Shown here one piece after another: positions 40,043 to 46,632 of a stretch of DNA of 64,000 bases (within the stretch, counting starts at the first letter, position 1; each line of letters opens with the position of its first letter). The notes beneath the pieces are model-generated. The model saw only the letters and a program-made list of their open reading frames with translations, searched no databases and was not told where the DNA came from. The translations under genes and the position numbers were made by a program. The stretch comes from Glaciecola sp. HTCC2999 (GTDB lineage Bacteria > Pseudomonadota > Gammaproteobacteria > Enterobacterales > Alteromonadaceae): positions 102,265 to 166,264 of the forward strand of contig NZ_DS989814.1 in NCBI RefSeq assembly GCF_000155775.1. The letters run 5' to 3'.

Positions 40043-41398
40043 ATGAAATTTTTGCCTATGTTATCCCTTAGTATGAGCTCACTGTTATTGTCTGCATGTG
40101 TCATTGTGACGCCTGATATCGTCGTTAACAAAGACGATGTAATAGTGACAAGTGAACGTCCGAAAAATATTATTATGATTGTGTCCGATGGTATGGGGCC
40201 AGCTTATACTACGGCATATCGCTATTACGCCGATGATCCTGCGACAACACAGCTCGATAATACCATTTTCGATCAATGGCATATTGGAAACGCATCTACT
40301 TATCCTGCGGAAGTCTCGGGCTTAGTTACTGATTCTGCCGCTAGTGCGACAGCCTTATCTTCTGGTATAAAGAGTTATAATGGAGCGATTGGTCTAGACG
40401 CGAATAAACAACCGGTGAACACTGTCTTGCATCGCGCCAAATCAAAAGGAATGAAAACAGGTCTCGCGGTGACTTCACAAATTGTTCACGCCACACCGGC
40501 CGCTTATGTCGCGCATAATGAAAGTCGTCGCAACTACAATGAAATTGCTGATAGCTTTTTCGATGATCGCTTACATGGCAGTATCAAAGTTGATGTGATG
40601 CTAGGCGGCGGGACTGATTATTTTATCCGTGAAGACCGTGATTTAACTGCTGAGTTTGTTGCACAAGGCTATCAGTACATAGATGATTATGGACAACTTC
40701 CTCGTTTAAATACAAAAGGCGGAGCATTGGGCTTATTTGCCCCTTCAGGTTTACCTTGGGCACTGGATGATACCAATCCTACGCGTTTAAAAGATATGGC
40801 ACAGACAGCAGTACGTCTTCTGGAAAATGAACAAGGATATTTCTTATTACTAGAAGCCAGTCAAGTTGATTGGGCAGGGCATGGCCGTGATATCAATTCT
40901 GCGATGGCAGAGATGCATGATTTACATGTGATGCTCGAATGGTTAAGTGAATATCAACAAAAGCACCCTGACACTTTAGTGGTGATGACGGCTGATCATA
41001 GTACTGGAGGGCTGACTTTAGGGGCGAATGGTGATTATCGTTGGGAGCCAGAAATACTCCATAATATTGTTCAGTCAGTGCCGAGCATGATTGAATTTAT
41101 CAAAGCATCCGCTTTAACACCACAACAACGTCTTGCTTACATCCAGTCAGCGTTACAATTTGACCTGACCGAGGAAGAAATCCAAGCTGTATTTGCAATG
41201 GATATGAGTGCTGAAAATCGACCACTAGAGGCTGTCATTAAAGCATTCATTGACCGTAAAACGAATACGGGATGGACGACATGGGGTCACACCGCTGTCG
41301 ACGTACAAGTATTTGCCATAGGACCTGGTGCGAGTAAATTTGCAGGCCATCAAGATAATACGGATATCGCGAAGTCTATATTTGAATTGTTGGATTAG
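40043..41398 (+). CDS. Alkaline phosphatase family lipoprotein
   Basis: 451 residues from the ATG at 40043; the ATG two codons upstream is too close to GGA at 40031. The N-terminus is a lipoprotein signal with lipobox LLSAC, so the enzyme is probably anchored in the outer membrane facing the periplasm. PhoA-type motifs are clear: MIVSDGMGP (metal-binding Asp), VTDSAASATALSSG (nucleophile Ser), EASQVDWAGHG and MTADHST metal ligands, and the late WTTWGHTAVDV His. Substrate range is unknown. It ends exactly one base before the stop of the convergent neighbour. Confidence 0.93.
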   Translation: MKFLPMLSLSMSSLLLSACVIVTPDIVVNKDDVIVTSERPKNIIMIVSDGMGPAYTTAYRYYADDPATTQLDNTIFDQWHIGNASTYPAEVSGLVTDSAASATALSSGIKSYNGAIGLDANKQPVNTVLHRAKSKGMKTGLAVTSQIVHATPAAYVAHNESRRNYNEIADSFFDDRLHGSIKVDVMLGGGTDYFIREDRDLTAEFVAQGYQYIDDYGQLPRLNTKGGALGLFAPSGLPWALDDTNPTRLKDMAQTAVRLLENEQGYFLLLEASQVDWAGHGRDINSAMAEMHDLHVMLEWLSEYQQKHPDTLVVMTADHSTGGLTLGANGDYRWEPEILHNIVQSVPSMIEFIKASALTPQQRLAYIQSALQFDLTEEEIQAVFAMDMSAENRPLEAVIKAFIDRKTNTGWTTWGHTAVDVQVFAIGPGASKFAGHQDNTDIAKSIFELLD

Positions 41399-42103
41399 TT
41401 ATTGATTCAAGAAAGTATCAATTTCTTCACCGGTCAATTTTTTCATTTGCATAAAAATATACATGATTGCAGTGATGAGCATGATCATGCTGGGGATGAC
41501 AATAACAGGATAACTCAGTGCGGTCATGCGGCCCAGCTCTTCGGTGTAAGCTGTTGTGCCGGGCTCCGATACTAAAATCCATTTAGCTAATGCATAGTTC
41601 AGTGTCGCAGAAAGAAAGAACGACGCGGCGACAATATAGTTACTGATATCAATTTTCTTTTCAAATTCAGCTACTTTGTTGATGCTGACTAAACGTTCGT
41701 TTAGTTTTGGCCAATTAATTATGGCTTCATTAAGTACTAATACTTTGATCAATGGCTTTTTCATATAGCGGGTCACTAATACAGCGATACCGATTAGCGC
41801 TGGGATAGCTGCTTCTTTTATAGCGATATATTCTGCAGGTAATTTTAATAAGCTAATCCCACCAGTTAATAAAACACTCACAATTCCTAGGACAGAGAAA
41901 AAATTGACTTTTTTGGTTTGTAGCAACTCATACAAACCATAGCCAACAGGAAAAGCTAATGCTACCGCTATACTCCATAATGGGCCTAAATACTCTGGTT
42001 TACTCGCATAGGTCATGATCACAACGGGAATGATGATGTTAAATGCAAGATTCGCTAGCATATTCTGTTGTTGTGGTTTGGTATGAGGAGTTGAATTGGG
42101 CAC
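41399..42103 (-). CDS. VC0807-like multi-pass membrane protein
   Basis: 234 residues with about six membrane segments (around 20-38, 44-62, 70-86, 95-110, 155-175 and 197-220). I recognise it as similar to a family of uncharacterised proteins named after Vibrio VC0807; no enzymatic motif is visible. It lies 34 bp downstream of the ATP-grasp ligase on the same strand and could be the last gene of that operon. It has no intergenic space at its 3-prime end. Confidence 0.7.
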   Translation of the reverse strand: MPNSTPHTKPQQQNMLANLAFNIIIPVVIMTYASKPEYLGPLWSIAVALAFPVGYGLYELLQTKKVNFFSVLGIVSVLLTGGISLLKLPAEYIAIKEAAIPALIGIAVLVTRYMKKPLIKVLVLNEAIINWPKLNERLVSINKVAEFEKKIDISNYIVAASFFLSATLNYALAKWILVSEPGTTAYTEELGRMTALSYPVIVIPSMIMLITAIMYIFMQMKKLTGEEIDTFLNQ

Positions 42104-42137
42104 GAGATTAATTTCCTGTTGGATAATGGCGAGGAGT

Positions 42138-43307
42138 TTACCCTAAAATAATATGGGGAACAAACCGAGAACTGTCTTGGGTGATCAGGCTGTTATCTTC
42201 ACGGATGGACATACCTGCTGGCATATCATTGACGAGCCAAGAGCCTATTAATGTATAGTTATCGCCAAATTTTGGTAACGCATGAAATTGCTGAAATATA
42301 ACGCCTTCATCGCCATATTGACCACCGGTTTGGGCTACCACCTCATTATTATCAATAATCATGATGTTAGCTCCTTCTCTTGAAAAAATAGGCTTTTTGA
42401 CCCATTTCCCAGATTTATCTACCTTGTCTAAATCTTTGTGCAAAAAACTGGGCAACAAGTTAGGATGTCCGGTGAAACGAGACCATAATAATGGCATCAG
42501 CGCTTTATTCGACAGCACACTTTTCCATAAAGGCTCAACCCATTTAGTCGATGAGTAGGCAGCAATTTCACCAAACTCTTCGCTCAACATAAATTCCCAA
42601 GGGTAGAGTTTGAATGCACTGTGAATGGGTAAATCATCCAGATCGAGAAATCGATGGGTCTCAGTGACACCTATATCATCAATGAAAATAAATGGTGTCT
42701 CTAGTCCAGCTTGTGCTGCGCAGTCTTGTAAATATTGAACAGTGCCTCTATCTTCAGCAGAATCTTGAGCACAACTAAAGTGCATGACTTTTTGCTGATG
42801 GATATTTGCGATATCACGAAAACGCATAATGAGTTTTTCTTGGAGTGAATTAAATTGGTCGGCAGATTGCGGTAATGTGCCACCATCTACACACTGTTCT
42901 AACCAAAGCCATTGCCAAAAACCAGATTCATAAAGGCTTGTCGGCGTATCTGCATTATTTTCAAGTAACTTAGCGGGTCCTTTTCCGTCATACACTAAAT
43001 CAAGGCGTGAATATAATGAGGGGTGGCGTTGTAACCAGGCGTCATGAACCGCTTCATGAAAGGCTTCAGGGATACAAAAATCAGTCAATAACGCTGGTGA
43101 TTGCACGACTTCATCGACGACATGTAAGCACATCTCGTGAAGCTCTTGGGTAGGATCTTCTATGTCACGTTCCACTTGTTCAAGCGTGAACTGATAATAT
43201 GCACTTTCATCCCAATAAGGCTCGCCGTTAATGGTATGAAAATTAAAGCCGTACTCTTGGGCGAGTGCTTGCCAATGCTGACGGGGAGCAATATCTCGCC
43301 TTAACAT
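42138..43307 (-). CDS. Glutathionylspermidine synthase-like ATP-grasp ligase (YgiC/YjfC family)
   Basis: 389 residues, corresponding to the synthetase half of glutathionylspermidine synthase without its amidase domain. The N-terminal pre-ATP-grasp region contains WDESAYYQFTLEQVE and LVYDGKGPAKLLENNADTPTSLYE; the C-terminal ATP-grasp part contains the VKKPIFSREGANIMI lysine motif and GSWLVNDMPAGMSIRED. The founding enzyme joins spermidine to the glycine carboxylate of glutathione. In YgiC/YjfC the substrate is unknown. It starts 3 bp after a DUF1190 lipoprotein ending in Gly-Gly, a possible C-terminal substrate. Confidence 0.9.
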   Translation of the reverse strand: MLRRDIAPRQHWQALAQEYGFNFHTINGEPYWDESAYYQFTLEQVERDIEDPTQELHEMCLHVVDEVVQSPALLTDFCIPEAFHEAVHDAWLQRHPSLYSRLDLVYDGKGPAKLLENNADTPTSLYESGFWQWLWLEQCVDGGTLPQSADQFNSLQEKLIMRFRDIANIHQQKVMHFSCAQDSAEDRGTVQYLQDCAAQAGLETPFIFIDDIGVTETHRFLDLDDLPIHSAFKLYPWEFMLSEEFGEIAAYSSTKWVEPLWKSVLSNKALMPLLWSRFTGHPNLLPSFLHKDLDKVDKSGKWVKKPIFSREGANIMIIDNNEVVAQTGGQYGDEGVIFQQFHALPKFGDNYTLIGSWLVNDMPAGMSIREDNSLITQDSSRFVPHIILG

Positions 43308-43310
43308 AAC

Positions 43311-43940
43311 CTATCCACCGAAACTTCTGGAGCTGGAAGAGCGTGCTACACTTTTACCAAAGCCACCGCGTTTCACGGTGCGGTTGACCGTGGGTTTCTT
43401 TTTAAAATCAGATTGATAGACTTTTACATCACGACGTCCCAAACTACCAAAGTCTTTACCACTAGCATTAAACCAACGACCACGTAAAGATGACCGGCGC
43501 GAGTATGAAGTGAACATGGGTTGCATATAGTAGCGGCGTTTTTTCTTCTTTTTACCCAGCGCATCACCGACTTCATCAATGACTTCACTCATCAAATAAC
43601 CGGCCATGAAAGGCATAAAGAAACTACTGCCTTGGTTTGACACGTATTCACAATTATCCTGACCAAACTCAAATTCACAGTCGCCTTCGCTCAAAAACTT
43701 AGGCCCCGTGCGCAGTGCTTCATCTTTTGCCTCTTTATAAGCACTGGTGCATTCTTCCATGTAATTTGGATTATCACTGGCACATTCATCAATACTGGTG
43801 TAAATCGAAGCAAGCTCGGGTTCTTCACCACAGCCACTTAGAAAAATAGCACTGATACCGACAGCGAGCGGTTTTACGGCGAACCACTTGCGCATTTGAG
43901 GTAAGGCAATTGAAGCAGTACGTTTTGATTCATTCATCAT
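43311..43940 (-). CDS. DUF1190 family lipoprotein (YgiB/YjfM-like) with Gly-Gly C-terminus
   Basis: 209 residues. A lipobox LSGC places the lipidated Cys at residue 37, after a long basic leader. Four further Cys occur in the ECASDNPNYMEECTSAYKEA and DCEFEFGQDNC segments. A hydrophobic FFMPFMAGYLM stretch follows near 105, a Lys cluster near 128-133, and an Arg/Ser-rich tail ending SSSSRSFGG. E. coli YgiB, as I recall, has the same RGGFG...SSRSxGG tail. GGAG lies 3 and 6 bp before two tandem ATGs, so the start may be one codon in. Function unknown; pairing with a GspS-like ligase is conserved in E. coli (ygiBC, yjfMC). Confidence 0.88.
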   Translation of the reverse strand: MMNESKRTASIALPQMRKWFAVKPLAVGISAIFLSGCGEEPELASIYTSIDECASDNPNYMEECTSAYKEAKDEALRTGPKFLSEGDCEFEFGQDNCEYVSNQGSSFFMPFMAGYLMSEVIDEVGDALGKKKKKRRYYMQPMFTSYSRRSSLRGRWFNASGKDFGSLGRRDVKVYQSDFKKKPTVNRTVKRGGFGKSVARSSSSRSFGG

Positions 43941-43953
43941 GGACTCCCTCTAC

Positions 43954-44370
43954 TTAATAGGTCATACAAGCTGCGTTGAGTAAACCCACTGCAATAGATA
44001 AGGCTGCCAGCATGATGCCAGCCGACACTTCATTTTGTTCGATACGTTCAGCAATTTTAGGCATAAAAGTGAAGCGTAATAGTAAAAACGCCAAACACTG
44101 TGCGAGTAAAGCAACAACGGCCCAAATAATAAAGTCAGTAAATGAGACTGCGTTTGCTGCAGCACCAGATAATGCCAATGCAAAGCCTATCAGTGCGCCA
44201 CCAAAGGCAATGGCCGCTGCAGTCGATTGCTTTTCCTTAATCAGAACCCACTCATCATGGGGCGTGACTTTGCTATAAATGACTTTAAAAACAAAGAGTA
44301 ATGCGATGGCTGCTGCAAAATATAAAATAAAACCGCCTAGGCCTGATAAAGAAGTGACAAGTGTGTCCAT
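43954..44370 (-). CDS. DUF350 family inner-membrane protein (YjfL-like)
   Basis: 138 residues with four membrane segments at about 9-30, 50-72, 80-102 and 115-136, the two-repeat layout of DUF350. No catalytic motif is visible. DUF350 proteins typically accompany DUF1190 and GspS-like genes, as yjfL does in E. coli. Gaps of 12 and 13 bp to its neighbours indicate one operon with the channel upstream and the lipoprotein downstream. Confidence 0.9.
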   Translation of the reverse strand: MDTLVTSLSGLGGFILYFAAAIALLFVFKVIYSKVTPHDEWVLIKEKQSTAAAIAFGGALIGFALALSGAAANAVSFTDFIIWAVVALLAQCLAFLLLRFTFMPKIAERIEQNEVSAGIMLAALSIAVGLLNAACMTY

Positions 44371-44382
44371 TATTAAGGTTCC

Positions 44383-45432
44383 TTATTGAAATGATGACCA
44401 ATTAAATTCATTGATTCGTCGTGCTGCGATATAAAAAATACGATCACCCGGGTTCACTTGTTCATTAAAATCCGGATTCACATGAATATTATGATCATCA
44501 TGATCCGTTGCAAAACCAACGAATATGGCATTATGGTGTCTTTTTAATCCTAAGAATAAATGCTCAACCGACATGGTCGAGGCCGTGTCAGGTACTAAAA
44601 CAGAGTATTGTTCCTGGCCGGCATCAACGCTGAGTAAATCATGGTGCAATAAGCTAGAACCTGGATCAAATGCCGATTTCACCAGTAATTCTACTGCTAC
44701 ACTAGGGGTGCATTCCACATTTGGACAATGGTCTTTGAGTAACCCCACTAAACTTTCATCGTTAAAATACGCCACTATGTGTGCATCTGGATTACGCTTG
44801 GCACAATACAACGCACTCGTCATCGTAATGTCGTCATCCGGGTTATCAATCAAAATCGTCTTAGCCTCAGCGACATTTGCCCGATCCATATCTTCGTCAC
44901 GATTAAATGAGCTGACTTTAACAAATTCAATTTGTCCTGGAAGTGGGTTGGTAATGTCTTTTCTGACACACAACATGATTTCGGACTTGACCGAATTTTG
45001 GTCGTTTTCTTTGATTAAAAGATTAAGTAACTGCAAGGTACGCTCACCATTCCAGCCCATAATCAATATGTGTTGTTCAGTCATGTGATTATTTAACCCT
45101 TTATTATTTTTGTGCCATTTAAATGATATCCACGTCGCAATACGACCTACAATGAGGGCAAAAATACTCAGCCCTACAGGTATGATATACAGTGCGACCA
45201 CTAATTTACCAGCAAATGTCGATGGTGAATAATCGCCATATCCGACAGTCGATCCGGTGACAATCAACCAATAAACAAAGTCGATTGGATGGGTCAGGGC
45301 AGTTTCCCCTGTAGCAAGTAGTAAGCCCCATGACGATATTCCATAGAGAAATAACAGAACGACTATTGTGTACCAATGGGTGTCTGAAAAATAATGAAGT
45401 AGCTTTTTTTTCAGCTTTTGCCAAGTCAACAT
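44383..45432 (-). CDS. Two-TM potassium channel with cytosolic RCK (TrkA-N) domain
   Basis: 349 residues. Two transmembrane helices (about 21-41 and 78-105) flank a pore loop with the selectivity filter TVGYGD at 62-67. A Rossmann-type RCK domain starts at ILIMGWNGERT near 122, with the nucleotide-loop glycines altered compared with GxGxxG, and a C-terminal RCK_C-like part runs to the end (NPGDRIFYIAARR). It should form a ligand-gated K+ channel in the inner membrane. It is first in an operon with DUF350, DUF1190 and ATP-grasp ligase genes and divergent from queA. Confidence 0.92.
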   Translation of the reverse strand: MLTWQKLKKKLLHYFSDTHWYTIVVLLFLYGISSWGLLLATGETALTHPIDFVYWLIVTGSTVGYGDYSPSTFAGKLVVALYIIPVGLSIFALIVGRIATWISFKWHKNNKGLNNHMTEQHILIMGWNGERTLQLLNLLIKENDQNSVKSEIMLCVRKDITNPLPGQIEFVKVSSFNRDEDMDRANVAEAKTILIDNPDDDITMTSALYCAKRNPDAHIVAYFNDESLVGLLKDHCPNVECTPSVAVELLVKSAFDPGSSLLHHDLLSVDAGQEQYSVLVPDTASTMSVEHLFLGLKRHHNAIFVGFATDHDDHNIHVNPDFNEQVNPGDRIFYIAARRINEFNWSSFQ

Positions 45433-45591
45433 TCAGGATCCTATAGAGTATTATTGTGATTATTAAGGGATAATAGAGATAGAAAATCAAGGGATTTAAT
45501 ATTTTGAAACAAAATAGTGTGTAAAATTTGTCACGCTATTTAGCAATTATGTACAATGTTCACATCAACGCTATTTACACATACCATATTT

Positions 45592-46632
45592 ATGAAAACT
45601 TCTGATTTTGGCTTCACTTTACCTGAGCATTTGATTGCGAAATATCCAACACAACAACGCTCAGCATCCCGTTTATTGCATTTAGATGGTAAGACTGGAG
45701 CCATCGCTCATCATCAATTTAAGAATATGCTGCAGTTTGTTGAAGCTGGTGATTTGTTGATATTCAATAATACCCGTGTCATTCCTGCTCGGTTACTTGG
45801 TCAAAAATCCACCGGAGGGAAAATAGAAGTATTGGTTGAAAGAATGCTTGATGATCATCGAGTGTTAGCGCATGTTAAATCAAGTAAATCACCTAAACCG
45901 GGTGCTCAACTCATATTGGAAGAGGTGATTGAAGCGACAATGTTAGGTCGTCATGGGGCATTATTTGAGCTTGAGTTTAGCGGTAATGAAAGTGTATTGG
46001 ATTTACTTGAGGCACATGGTCATATGCCATTGCCACCTTATATTGACCGTCCTGATGAAGACGGTGATAAAGAGCGTTATCAAACGGTGTATAATGAAAA
46101 GCCTGGCGCGGTCGCAGCACCGACTGCTGGCTTACATTTTGATGATGAAATTTTGGCACAAATCAAAGACAAAGGCGTGCAAATTGAGTTTGTGACCTTG
46201 CATGTGGGAGCGGGGACGTTTCAACCAGTCAAAGTTGATAATGTAGAAGAGCATGTGATGCATGCTGAATACGCGGAAGTGCCAGATGCGGTGGTAGCGG
46301 CGATAAAAGCGACAAAAGCAGCAGGTAAACGGGTCATTGCTGTTGGCACCACCTCTATGCGTTCATTAGAATCGGCGGCGAAAAAAGCTGACGCCACGAA
46401 TGAATTGATAGTGCCATTTTATGAAGACACCGAAATCTTCATCTATCCAGGGTTTGAATTTAAGGTGGTAGACGCCATGTTCACCAATTTTCATTTACCA
46501 GAGTCGACATTGATGATGTTAATCAGTGCGCTTGCGGGTAAAGAAAATGTCATGCAGGCATATGCTGAAGCCATCGCTCACGAATACCGATTTTTTAGCT
46601 ATGGTGACTCAATGTTCATCGAAAAATCATAG
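45592..46632 (+). CDS. queA: S-adenosylmethionine:tRNA ribosyltransferase-isomerase QueA
   Basis: 346 residues from the ATG at 45592 ([19 protein letters not shown]), matching family N-termini; the ATG 12 codons upstream is less likely. QueA builds epoxyqueuosine from preQ1 at the tRNA wobble position using the ribosyl group of SAM. Motifs include [10 protein letters not shown] near 58-67, [12 protein letters not shown] near 170-181 and [10 protein letters not shown] near 202-211. tgt, which inserts preQ1, follows 63 bp downstream with its own promoter. Confidence 0.97.

Follow-up and report, generated by a model that had tools for sequence, protein, structure and literature searches.

Comparative evidence that YgiC/YjfC-type ATP-grasp ligases may act on the Gly-Gly tail of DUF1190 lipoproteins

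A 64,000-nucleotide (nt) stretch of the Glaciecola sp. HTCC2999 genome (contig NZ_DS989814.1, positions 102,265 to 166,264; hereafter the window) carries a compact operon in which a lipoprotein of the DUF1190 family is encoded directly before a single-domain ATP-grasp ligase of the YgiC/YjfC type. Comparison of this operon with related loci leads us to propose, with a probability of roughly 60%, that in YjfLMC/YgiBC-type systems the ligase couples a polyamine to the C-terminal glycine of the DUF1190 lipoprotein before export. A preliminary description of this DNA had already suggested that the ligase acts on this glycine. Comparison supports that claim well through the linkage of the two genes, the conservation of the tail and its loss without the ligase, and makes it the best available explanation, although a minority of tails end in residues other than Gly.

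Results

The DUF1190 gene and the ligase gene are tightly linked. The 394 genomes of our order survey contain DUF1190 at 86 places, spread over 81 of them, and, among the matches listed, which leave out the weakest ligase matches, single-domain ligases scoring at least 443 bits occur at 96 places in 91 genomes. A same-strand ligase from among these matches lies directly downstream of 85 of the 86 DUF1190 genes, and the remaining one is adjacent and divergent. Ten further ligases from this order, all in one small-genome family, have no Pfam DUF1190 match; each has a lipoprotein ending RGGF..GG directly upstream. The phylum survey of 398 genomes gives 61 with both genes, 24 with a ligase and no Pfam DUF1190 match, 2 with DUF1190 only and 311 with neither (Fisher p = 2.5e-49, no true probability, since the species are related). 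An open reading frame (ORF) with the tail lies near the ligase in 22 of these 24 genomes, the exceptions being G705 and G876.

The same pairing is seen in a set of 226 distinct single-domain ligases, of which 79 come from genome_contigs (the complete ligase ORFs among the best 80 of 567 relatives), 145 from whole genomes and 2 from E. coli. Distinctness was judged on the last 330 residues of the ligase and the last 80 of its partner; the species are related, and six additional loci lie outside the set. A partner ORF, with either a DUF1190 match or the same tail, is present on the same stretch for 217 of the 226. By rule, 193 ligases have a partner recognized by a DUF1190 hidden Markov model (HMM), 21 have an upstream ORF recognized by its tail only, and 12 have none. 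Three of these 12 gain a tail-bearing ORF by eye: 2.3 kb upstream and ending GGS in L183 (read in L259, a longer stretch of the same genome), 5.2 kb upstream in L204, and directly downstream after a 3-nt gap in L210. The 214 rule-found partners lie directly upstream of the ligase in 201 cases, directly downstream in 5, farther away on the same strand in 1 and on the opposite strand in 7. Six Photobacterium loci (L026, L038, L039, L044, L045 and L059) have a ligase with no DUF1190 nearby; we rejected the idea that these are orphan ligases, because all six genomes carry DUF1190 elsewhere, ending WGG. At L308:3087-5056, a very divergent ligase (142 bits) is directly preceded by a lipoprotein that ends RSSSYSSGS and has no clear RGGF.

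The C-terminal tail of the partner is strongly conserved. Of 209 distinct partners (the three found by eye excluded), 183 end in GG, the end that the preliminary description expected alongside the ligase, but 26 do not: 16 end in GS, 4 in SS and 6 otherwise. The motif RGG[FWY] lies within the last 60 residues of 196 partners, and a linker of 2 to 46 residues separates it from the end. Tail-only partners come from a motif rule under which the last residue must also be G, S, T or A. We built the DUF1190 HMM from complete proteins with their tails, and the tail may therefore contribute to its eight weakest matches with an intact lipoprotein (19-30 bits). Among the 188 partners found with this HMM and no tail rule, 166 end GG and 179 carry RGG[FWY]. 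GG accounts for 60 of 2885 dipeptides within the linkers, and it ends 17 of 2600 other ORFs of at least 150 residues (spurious ORFs included); at the C-terminus of the partners, GG is far more frequent than within the linkers. The residue preceding the final pair is Trp in 93 partners and Met in 34. The tails are basic: Asp and Glu are both missing from the final 30 positions in 142 partners, and the median net charge over the final 50 is +7. A crude lipobox pattern is found in 179 of the 209; the other 30, inspected by eye, include missed lipoboxes, N-terminal anchors and mis-called starts.

The DUF1190 protein of the window has a lipobox, LSGC, and, as given in the preliminary description, the C-terminal sequence SRSFGG. 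The tail of E. coli YgiB, there described as similar, indeed ends SRSMGG, and ygiB lies directly before ygiC; YjfM ends GHWGG, and yjfM lies directly before yjfC. The window protein scores 157.4 bits against the DUF1190 profile PF06693 (cut-off 22), and falls below the curated score of PRK11653, the NCBIfam equivalog of DUF1190 (195.3 versus 223 bits). It was aligned with 46 of the 61 non-redundant DUF1190 genes of L008-L087 (non-GG partners L035 and L048 included; L010, L020 and L033 left out). Cys53, Cys64, Cys88, Cys97 and RGGFG do not vary across these 47 rows. An AlphaFold 2 (AF2) model is confident at residues 41-120 and 141-200, and its last six residues are disordered, which is consistent with a free C-terminal end. 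Foldseek finds no match to this model at E <=0.001 (best 3.7), an absence that is no proof of a new fold; the best VIA-align hit has a Z-score of 2.9 over 89 residues, with a root-mean-square deviation of 7.0.

The tail also accompanies ligases whose partners the DUF1190 profile does not recognize. Tail-bearing ORFs with no DUF1190 match pair with 21 distinct ligases, and 17 of the 21 end GG; since these partners were found by motif, only their GG ends are informative. In Burkholderia-like and Pseudomonas-like genomes, short partners missed by the HMM lie directly before the ligase, with tails such as VSRGGFGSFGHGFSGGG and VTRGGFGHSGARFSGGG (these taxon labels, like the Pasteurellaceae-like and alphaproteobacterial ones given to genomes with G handles, are guesses). 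Because some of the short partners keep a DUF1190-like Y...C....C pattern by eye, they are probably divergent DUF1190 relatives rather than unrelated proteins. A strict form of the tail is found in none of 709 ORFs around 20 genes for the fused, amidase-containing glutathionylspermidine synthetase (GspSA). Among 10547 ORFs of 248 ligase loci, DUF1190 and ligase ORFs not counted, 20 have it; all 20 are taken to be partners, belonging to 15 distinct ligases and in one case lying 5.2 kb away. Chance matches occur with a looser motif, in 6 of the 709 control-locus ORFs and 136 of the 10547 ligase-locus ORFs.

Splitting DUF1190 C-termini by the presence of a ligase, a check proposed in the preliminary description, shows the tail kept with the ligase and absent from both ligase-free DUF1190 genomes. 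G652 ends APSEGS and retains a decayed KKGGVGG, and G887 has no tail at all. The tail is also missing from four weak, partial DUF1190 matches in genomes whose ligase lies elsewhere. These losses bear on the idea that conservation of the Gly/Ser/Arg-rich tail reflects a role of the lipoprotein in structure or at the surface, the ligase being linked for some other reason. The scarcity of acidic residues and the net charge of +7 are what a binder of anionic surfaces might show, but such a role sits poorly with a tail that stays by the ligase where the DUF1190 profile fails and is absent from the two ligase-free genomes; we regard it as improbable. Separately, the DUF1190 paralogues at L134 and L129 keep RGGYG or RGGFG and have lost the Gly-Gly end; another DUF1190-ligase pair is present elsewhere in the genome.

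The preliminary description called the enzyme the ligase half of glutathionylspermidine synthetase. The family, PF03738, stands, with a full-length match over positions 1-371 as a single domain (508.8 bits), but its closest kin are YgiC and YjfC rather than GspSA. The closest solved structures are those of YgiC (Protein Data Bank (PDB) 7uk8, 3.4e-150; 57% identity) and YjfC (7uk6, 2.3e-134; 52% identity), with GspSA at 1.9e-32; the nearest named relative, from Glaciecola sp. UBA983, is 83% identical. The 389-residue protein, with its one Pfam domain, fails the GspSA equivalog test (157.6 bits against a cut-off of 882), and its best stretch covers only profile positions 487-616 of 619. By profile and closest structures, the window ligase belongs to the YgiC/YjfC peptide--spermidine ligase type. 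The window genome, 82% complete, contains no second PF03738 match, and inspection by eye reveals no signal in the ligase, which looks cytosolic.

Comparison of 79 single-domain ligases (a third of the distinct ones plus those of the window, YgiC and YjfC) with 20 fused enzymes shows Arg101, Asp103, Glu116 and Asn118 conserved in both classes. Residues that switch between classes include Thr121-Pro122-Thr123 (Ser-Ala-Ser in the fused enzymes), Lys262 and Glu311, among others. In molecular dynamics of trypanothione synthetase (TryS), as given in the available part of PMC3581523, Mg is held by Asp330, Glu344 and Asn346, and Arg328 and Ser351 contact the glycyl carboxylate of glutathione in the model. 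By motif spacing rather than by an alignment with TryS, Arg101, Asp103, Glu116, Asn118 and Thr123 of the window ligase match TryS Arg328, Asp330, Glu344, Asn346 and Ser351. The site that would activate a terminal glycine carboxylate thus appears to be kept, while its surroundings differ.

The operon itself is laid out as previously described, with four ORFs head to tail on the minus strand, and the gaps between the channel, DUF350, DUF1190 and ligase genes are 12, 13 and 3 nt (Table 1). Each ORF has a Pfam match that exceeds its cut-off (GSP_synth, 508.8 bits; DUF1190, 157.4; DUF350, 130.3; Ion_trans_2, 45.3).

Table 1 Features of the operon and of its predicted modification system (window coordinates)
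Feature	Position	Strand	Details and basis
K+ channel-like gene, two transmembrane segments, optional member	44383-45432	minus	349 aa; Ion_trans_2, weak TrkA_N
DUF350 (YjfL-like) membrane protein	43954-44370	minus	138 aa; Pfam, AF2 model
DUF1190 lipoprotein, predicted acceptor	43311-43940	minus	209 aa; Pfam, 47-row alignment, AF2 model
Single-domain ATP-grasp ligase, YgiC/YjfC type, without amidase domain	42138-43307	minus	389 aa; Pfam, PDB 7uk8/7uk6
Lipobox LSGC of DUF1190 protein, residues 34-37, followed by Gly	43830-43841	minus	Sequence; Cys37 invariant in 47 sequences
RGGFG motif of C-terminal tail, residues 191-195	43356-43370	minus	Invariant in 47 aligned relatives
Gly208-Gly209, predicted site of amide formation	43314-43319	minus	Gly208 invariant, Gly209 at least 90% in 47 rows
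Predicted carboxylate-activating site of ligase, Arg101, Asp103, Glu116, Asn118 to Thr123	42939-43007	minus	Class conservation, TryS motif spacing

The channel has the selectivity filter TVGYG, read from sequence. Its Ion_trans_2 match upholds the earlier designation as a channel, but 'RCK-type' is weakly supported because the RCK-like TrkA_N match reaches 22 bits, just below the cut-off of 23.8. Among loci with at least 4.3 kb of upstream sequence, 46 of the 74 from genome_contigs and 21 of the 94 from whole genomes have a channel match on the stretch; 37 of the 46 also carry DUF2170, PspA and DUF2491, and 9 have the window layout. The other 28 and 73 ligase loci, all ygiBC-type pairs included, show no channel match.

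The preliminary description proposed checking whether the channel co-occurs with the other three genes. Of the 59 genomes surveyed in the family, 24 carry a single-domain ligase scoring at least 483 bits and 21 a close channel homologue (at least 54% identity), 20 of the latter within about 3.5 kb of a single-domain ligase. G446 (L307:5466-7399) has window-like neighbours and keeps the channel and a VC0807-family gene, and the DUF350-DUF1190-ligase block is missing as a unit. By these comparisons, the DUF350-DUF1190-ligase trio is the unit and the channel is accessory. A core function centred on the channel was rejected, the channel being separable in both the locus survey and G446. The gating link raised in the preliminary description is weakened in the same way, since the channel is optional. 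In its strong form, in which gating is the purpose of the system and the K+ channel is modified or blocked through conjugation of polyamines, the idea draws on the proximity of those 20 homologues, but the many loci with no channel match and the survival of the channel alone in G446 make it very unlikely.

The AF2 model of DUF350 is all helical (mean predicted local distance difference test score, 89.7), and Foldseek returns no match at E <=0.001, an absence that is no proof of a new fold. The DUF350 C-terminus, NAACMTY (window 43954-43980), is strongly conserved over 41 relatives. DUF350 was rejected as an acceptor because ygiBC-type and several other ligase loci have no DUF350 match and its end is not Gly.

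A VC0807-family membrane gene follows the ligase on the same strand after 34 nt (window 41399-42103); matched in 25 of 83 loci scanned, it possibly belongs to the unit in the family of the window organism. A sigma-54 promoter is reported for the P. aeruginosa bac operon in the part of PMC10948618 available to us. Upstream of the window channel gene we find no convincing sigma-54 site. Strong sigma-54-like sites (TGGCAC-N5-TTGC, and another with TCGC) lie 55 nt after the called channel start in L031 and L050, where the called start is probably placed too far upstream. Sigma-70-like sites at the window operon are at background level (15 versus 12.2), and terminator-like sites in window 41300-45700 are above it (9 versus 3.4, standard deviation 1.9), several of them intragenic.

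Discussion

We infer a covalent modification of the tail, the identity of the amine, a timing before export and a role at the envelope. In the proposed pathway, the ATP-grasp ligase would act in the cytosol on the precursor of the DUF1190 lipoprotein, phosphorylating the carboxylate of the C-terminal glycine and joining the activated glycine to a primary amine; spermidine or a closely related polyamine is the likeliest candidate. RGGFG, a flexible Ser-rich linker and the terminal Gly-Gly would together form the recognition and acceptor tail. Because the lipoprotein is exported and the ligase looks cytosolic, amidation would have to happen ahead of export. This would yield a lipoprotein of the envelope with extra positive charge in place of its C-terminal carboxylate, and the product may serve envelope homeostasis together with DUF350 and, in many relatives, PspA-family proteins.

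Several observations weigh against this proposal. A requirement for modification before export is unusual, only two ligase-free DUF1190 genomes are present in the sample, and for 3 of the 226 distinct ligases (L214, L217 and L220) no partner was found. Ten tails end in neither GG nor GS: four in SS (L239, L240, L248 and L251) and the others in AAGT (L228), AHS (L216), STAS (L213), NHAAT (L134), SVRA (L129) and STLA (L033, a contig from an uncultured genome). A same-strand ligase adjoins all but one of these ten, and the last residue of the partner is thus not strictly Gly. RGGFG is kept more strictly than the end of the tail, which also fits docking. The tail might then be a docking or regulatory element for the ligase, itself unmodified, with a small peptide as the true substrate, as the excess of RGG[FWY] over terminal GG and the SS-ending tails near a ligase would allow. 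A docking motif alone, however, would have no need for small residues at the carboxyl end after a linker whose length varies, nor would it account for a terminal GG frequency well over the linker background, and we consider this reading unlikely.

A final point against the proposal concerns the amine: the window genome, which is 82% complete, yielded no match to the spermidine synthase or AdoMet decarboxylase families. It may be, therefore, that the amine is norspermidine, spermidine made by the carboxy route, or another. The tail could also be the acceptor for an amine that is no polyamine at all, such as an amino acid, a peptide or another envelope amine, a reading that the missing families favour and that our observations, which leave the amine unfixed, accommodate. 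YgiC and YjfC are named peptide--spermidine ligases, however, the window genome has the carboxynorspermidine decarboxylase gene nspC, and the homologous enzymes GspS and TryS use spermidine according to the available part of PMC3581523. A polyamine such as spermidine is the most likely amine, and a different class seems doubtful.

Polyamine amidation of the DUF1190 tail may also be one case of something broader and widespread in bacteria. Envelope proteins with a short C-terminal signal, made up of RGGFG, a Ser-rich linker and Gly-Gly, would be recognized by a dedicated ATP-grasp ligase and amidated with a polyamine before they are exported. Such a system would be defined by the tail rather than by the DUF1190 domain, and bodies too divergent for the DUF1190 profile would carry the tail too; we see the chances of this generalization as evenly divided. 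If the tail rule is right, it names a predicted physiological substrate for YgiC and YjfC, with an exact residue, an exact mass shift and a laboratory organism; for spermidine on Gly, PMC12270671 lists a shift of +127.147 Da. DUF1190 would gain a function, and the rule would provide a handle on DUF350 and on operons with PspA-family proteins.

In RefSeq, YgiC and YjfC both bear the name 'peptide--spermidine ligase', with ygiB annotated ahead of ygiC and yjfLM ahead of yjfC; the paper behind this assignment is reportedly Pederick et al. 2023. Iyer et al. 2009, on amidoligases, is said perhaps to predict peptide modification in such systems already. The preliminary description remarked that parts of the neighbourhood had been noted before, and PMC11237479, in its available part, indeed reports an operon that combines an ATP-grasp ligase, a K+ channel that senses intracellular ligands, DUF350, DUF1190, DUF2491 and a CesT/Tir-PspA dyad. 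Given this operon and the RefSeq naming, the neighbourhood and the enzyme class are already known and not new. In the titles and opening lines of abstracts covered by our literature search, most subscription papers being outside its reach, DUF1190, YgiB or YjfM is never named as a substrate, and no physiological substrate of YgiC or YjfC is given; the available parts of PMC6272389 and PMC13340087 yielded nothing on this question. YgiC lacks GspS activity according to the accessible part of PMC12506659.

The window operon is a variant of E. coli yjfLMC/ygiBC. Like yjfIJKLMC and ygiBC, it has DUF1190 with a Gly-Gly end directly upstream of the ligase and, like yjfLMC, a DUF350 gene; structures of the E. 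coli ligases are available (PDB 7uk6, 7uk7, 7uk8 and 7uka). Unlike the E. coli operons, it has a K+ channel gene, and HMMs made from the E. coli genes and their relatives for CesT/Tir (DUF2170), PspA and DUF2491 match no ORF in the 64 kb of the window at 1e-3. With the third group of phage-shock-protein (PSP)-associated operons, as described in the available part of PMC11237479, it shares the ATP-grasp ligase, K+ channel, DUF350 and DUF1190, but has neither the CesT/Tir-PspA dyad nor DUF2491; the section of that paper on these operons calls DUF1190 a metal-chelating lipoprotein and names neither a substrate nor the tail. GspSA and TryS have PF03738 and the carboxylate-site Arg, Asp, Glu and Asn in common with the window ligase, which differs in lacking the amidase domain, in its class-specific residues and in its tailed partner, the tail being absent around 20 GspSA genes. 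A chemical parallel is the conjugation of spermidine to the C-termini of SUMO and ubiquitin, in which a protein Gly-Gly end is amidated to spermidine; as the accessible part of PMC12270671 presents it, that reaction uses E1/E2 enzymes and unrelated proteins in eukaryotes. If our proposal is correct, bacteria possess a dedicated C-terminal polyamination of envelope proteins that parallels these SUMO Gly-Gly conjugates.

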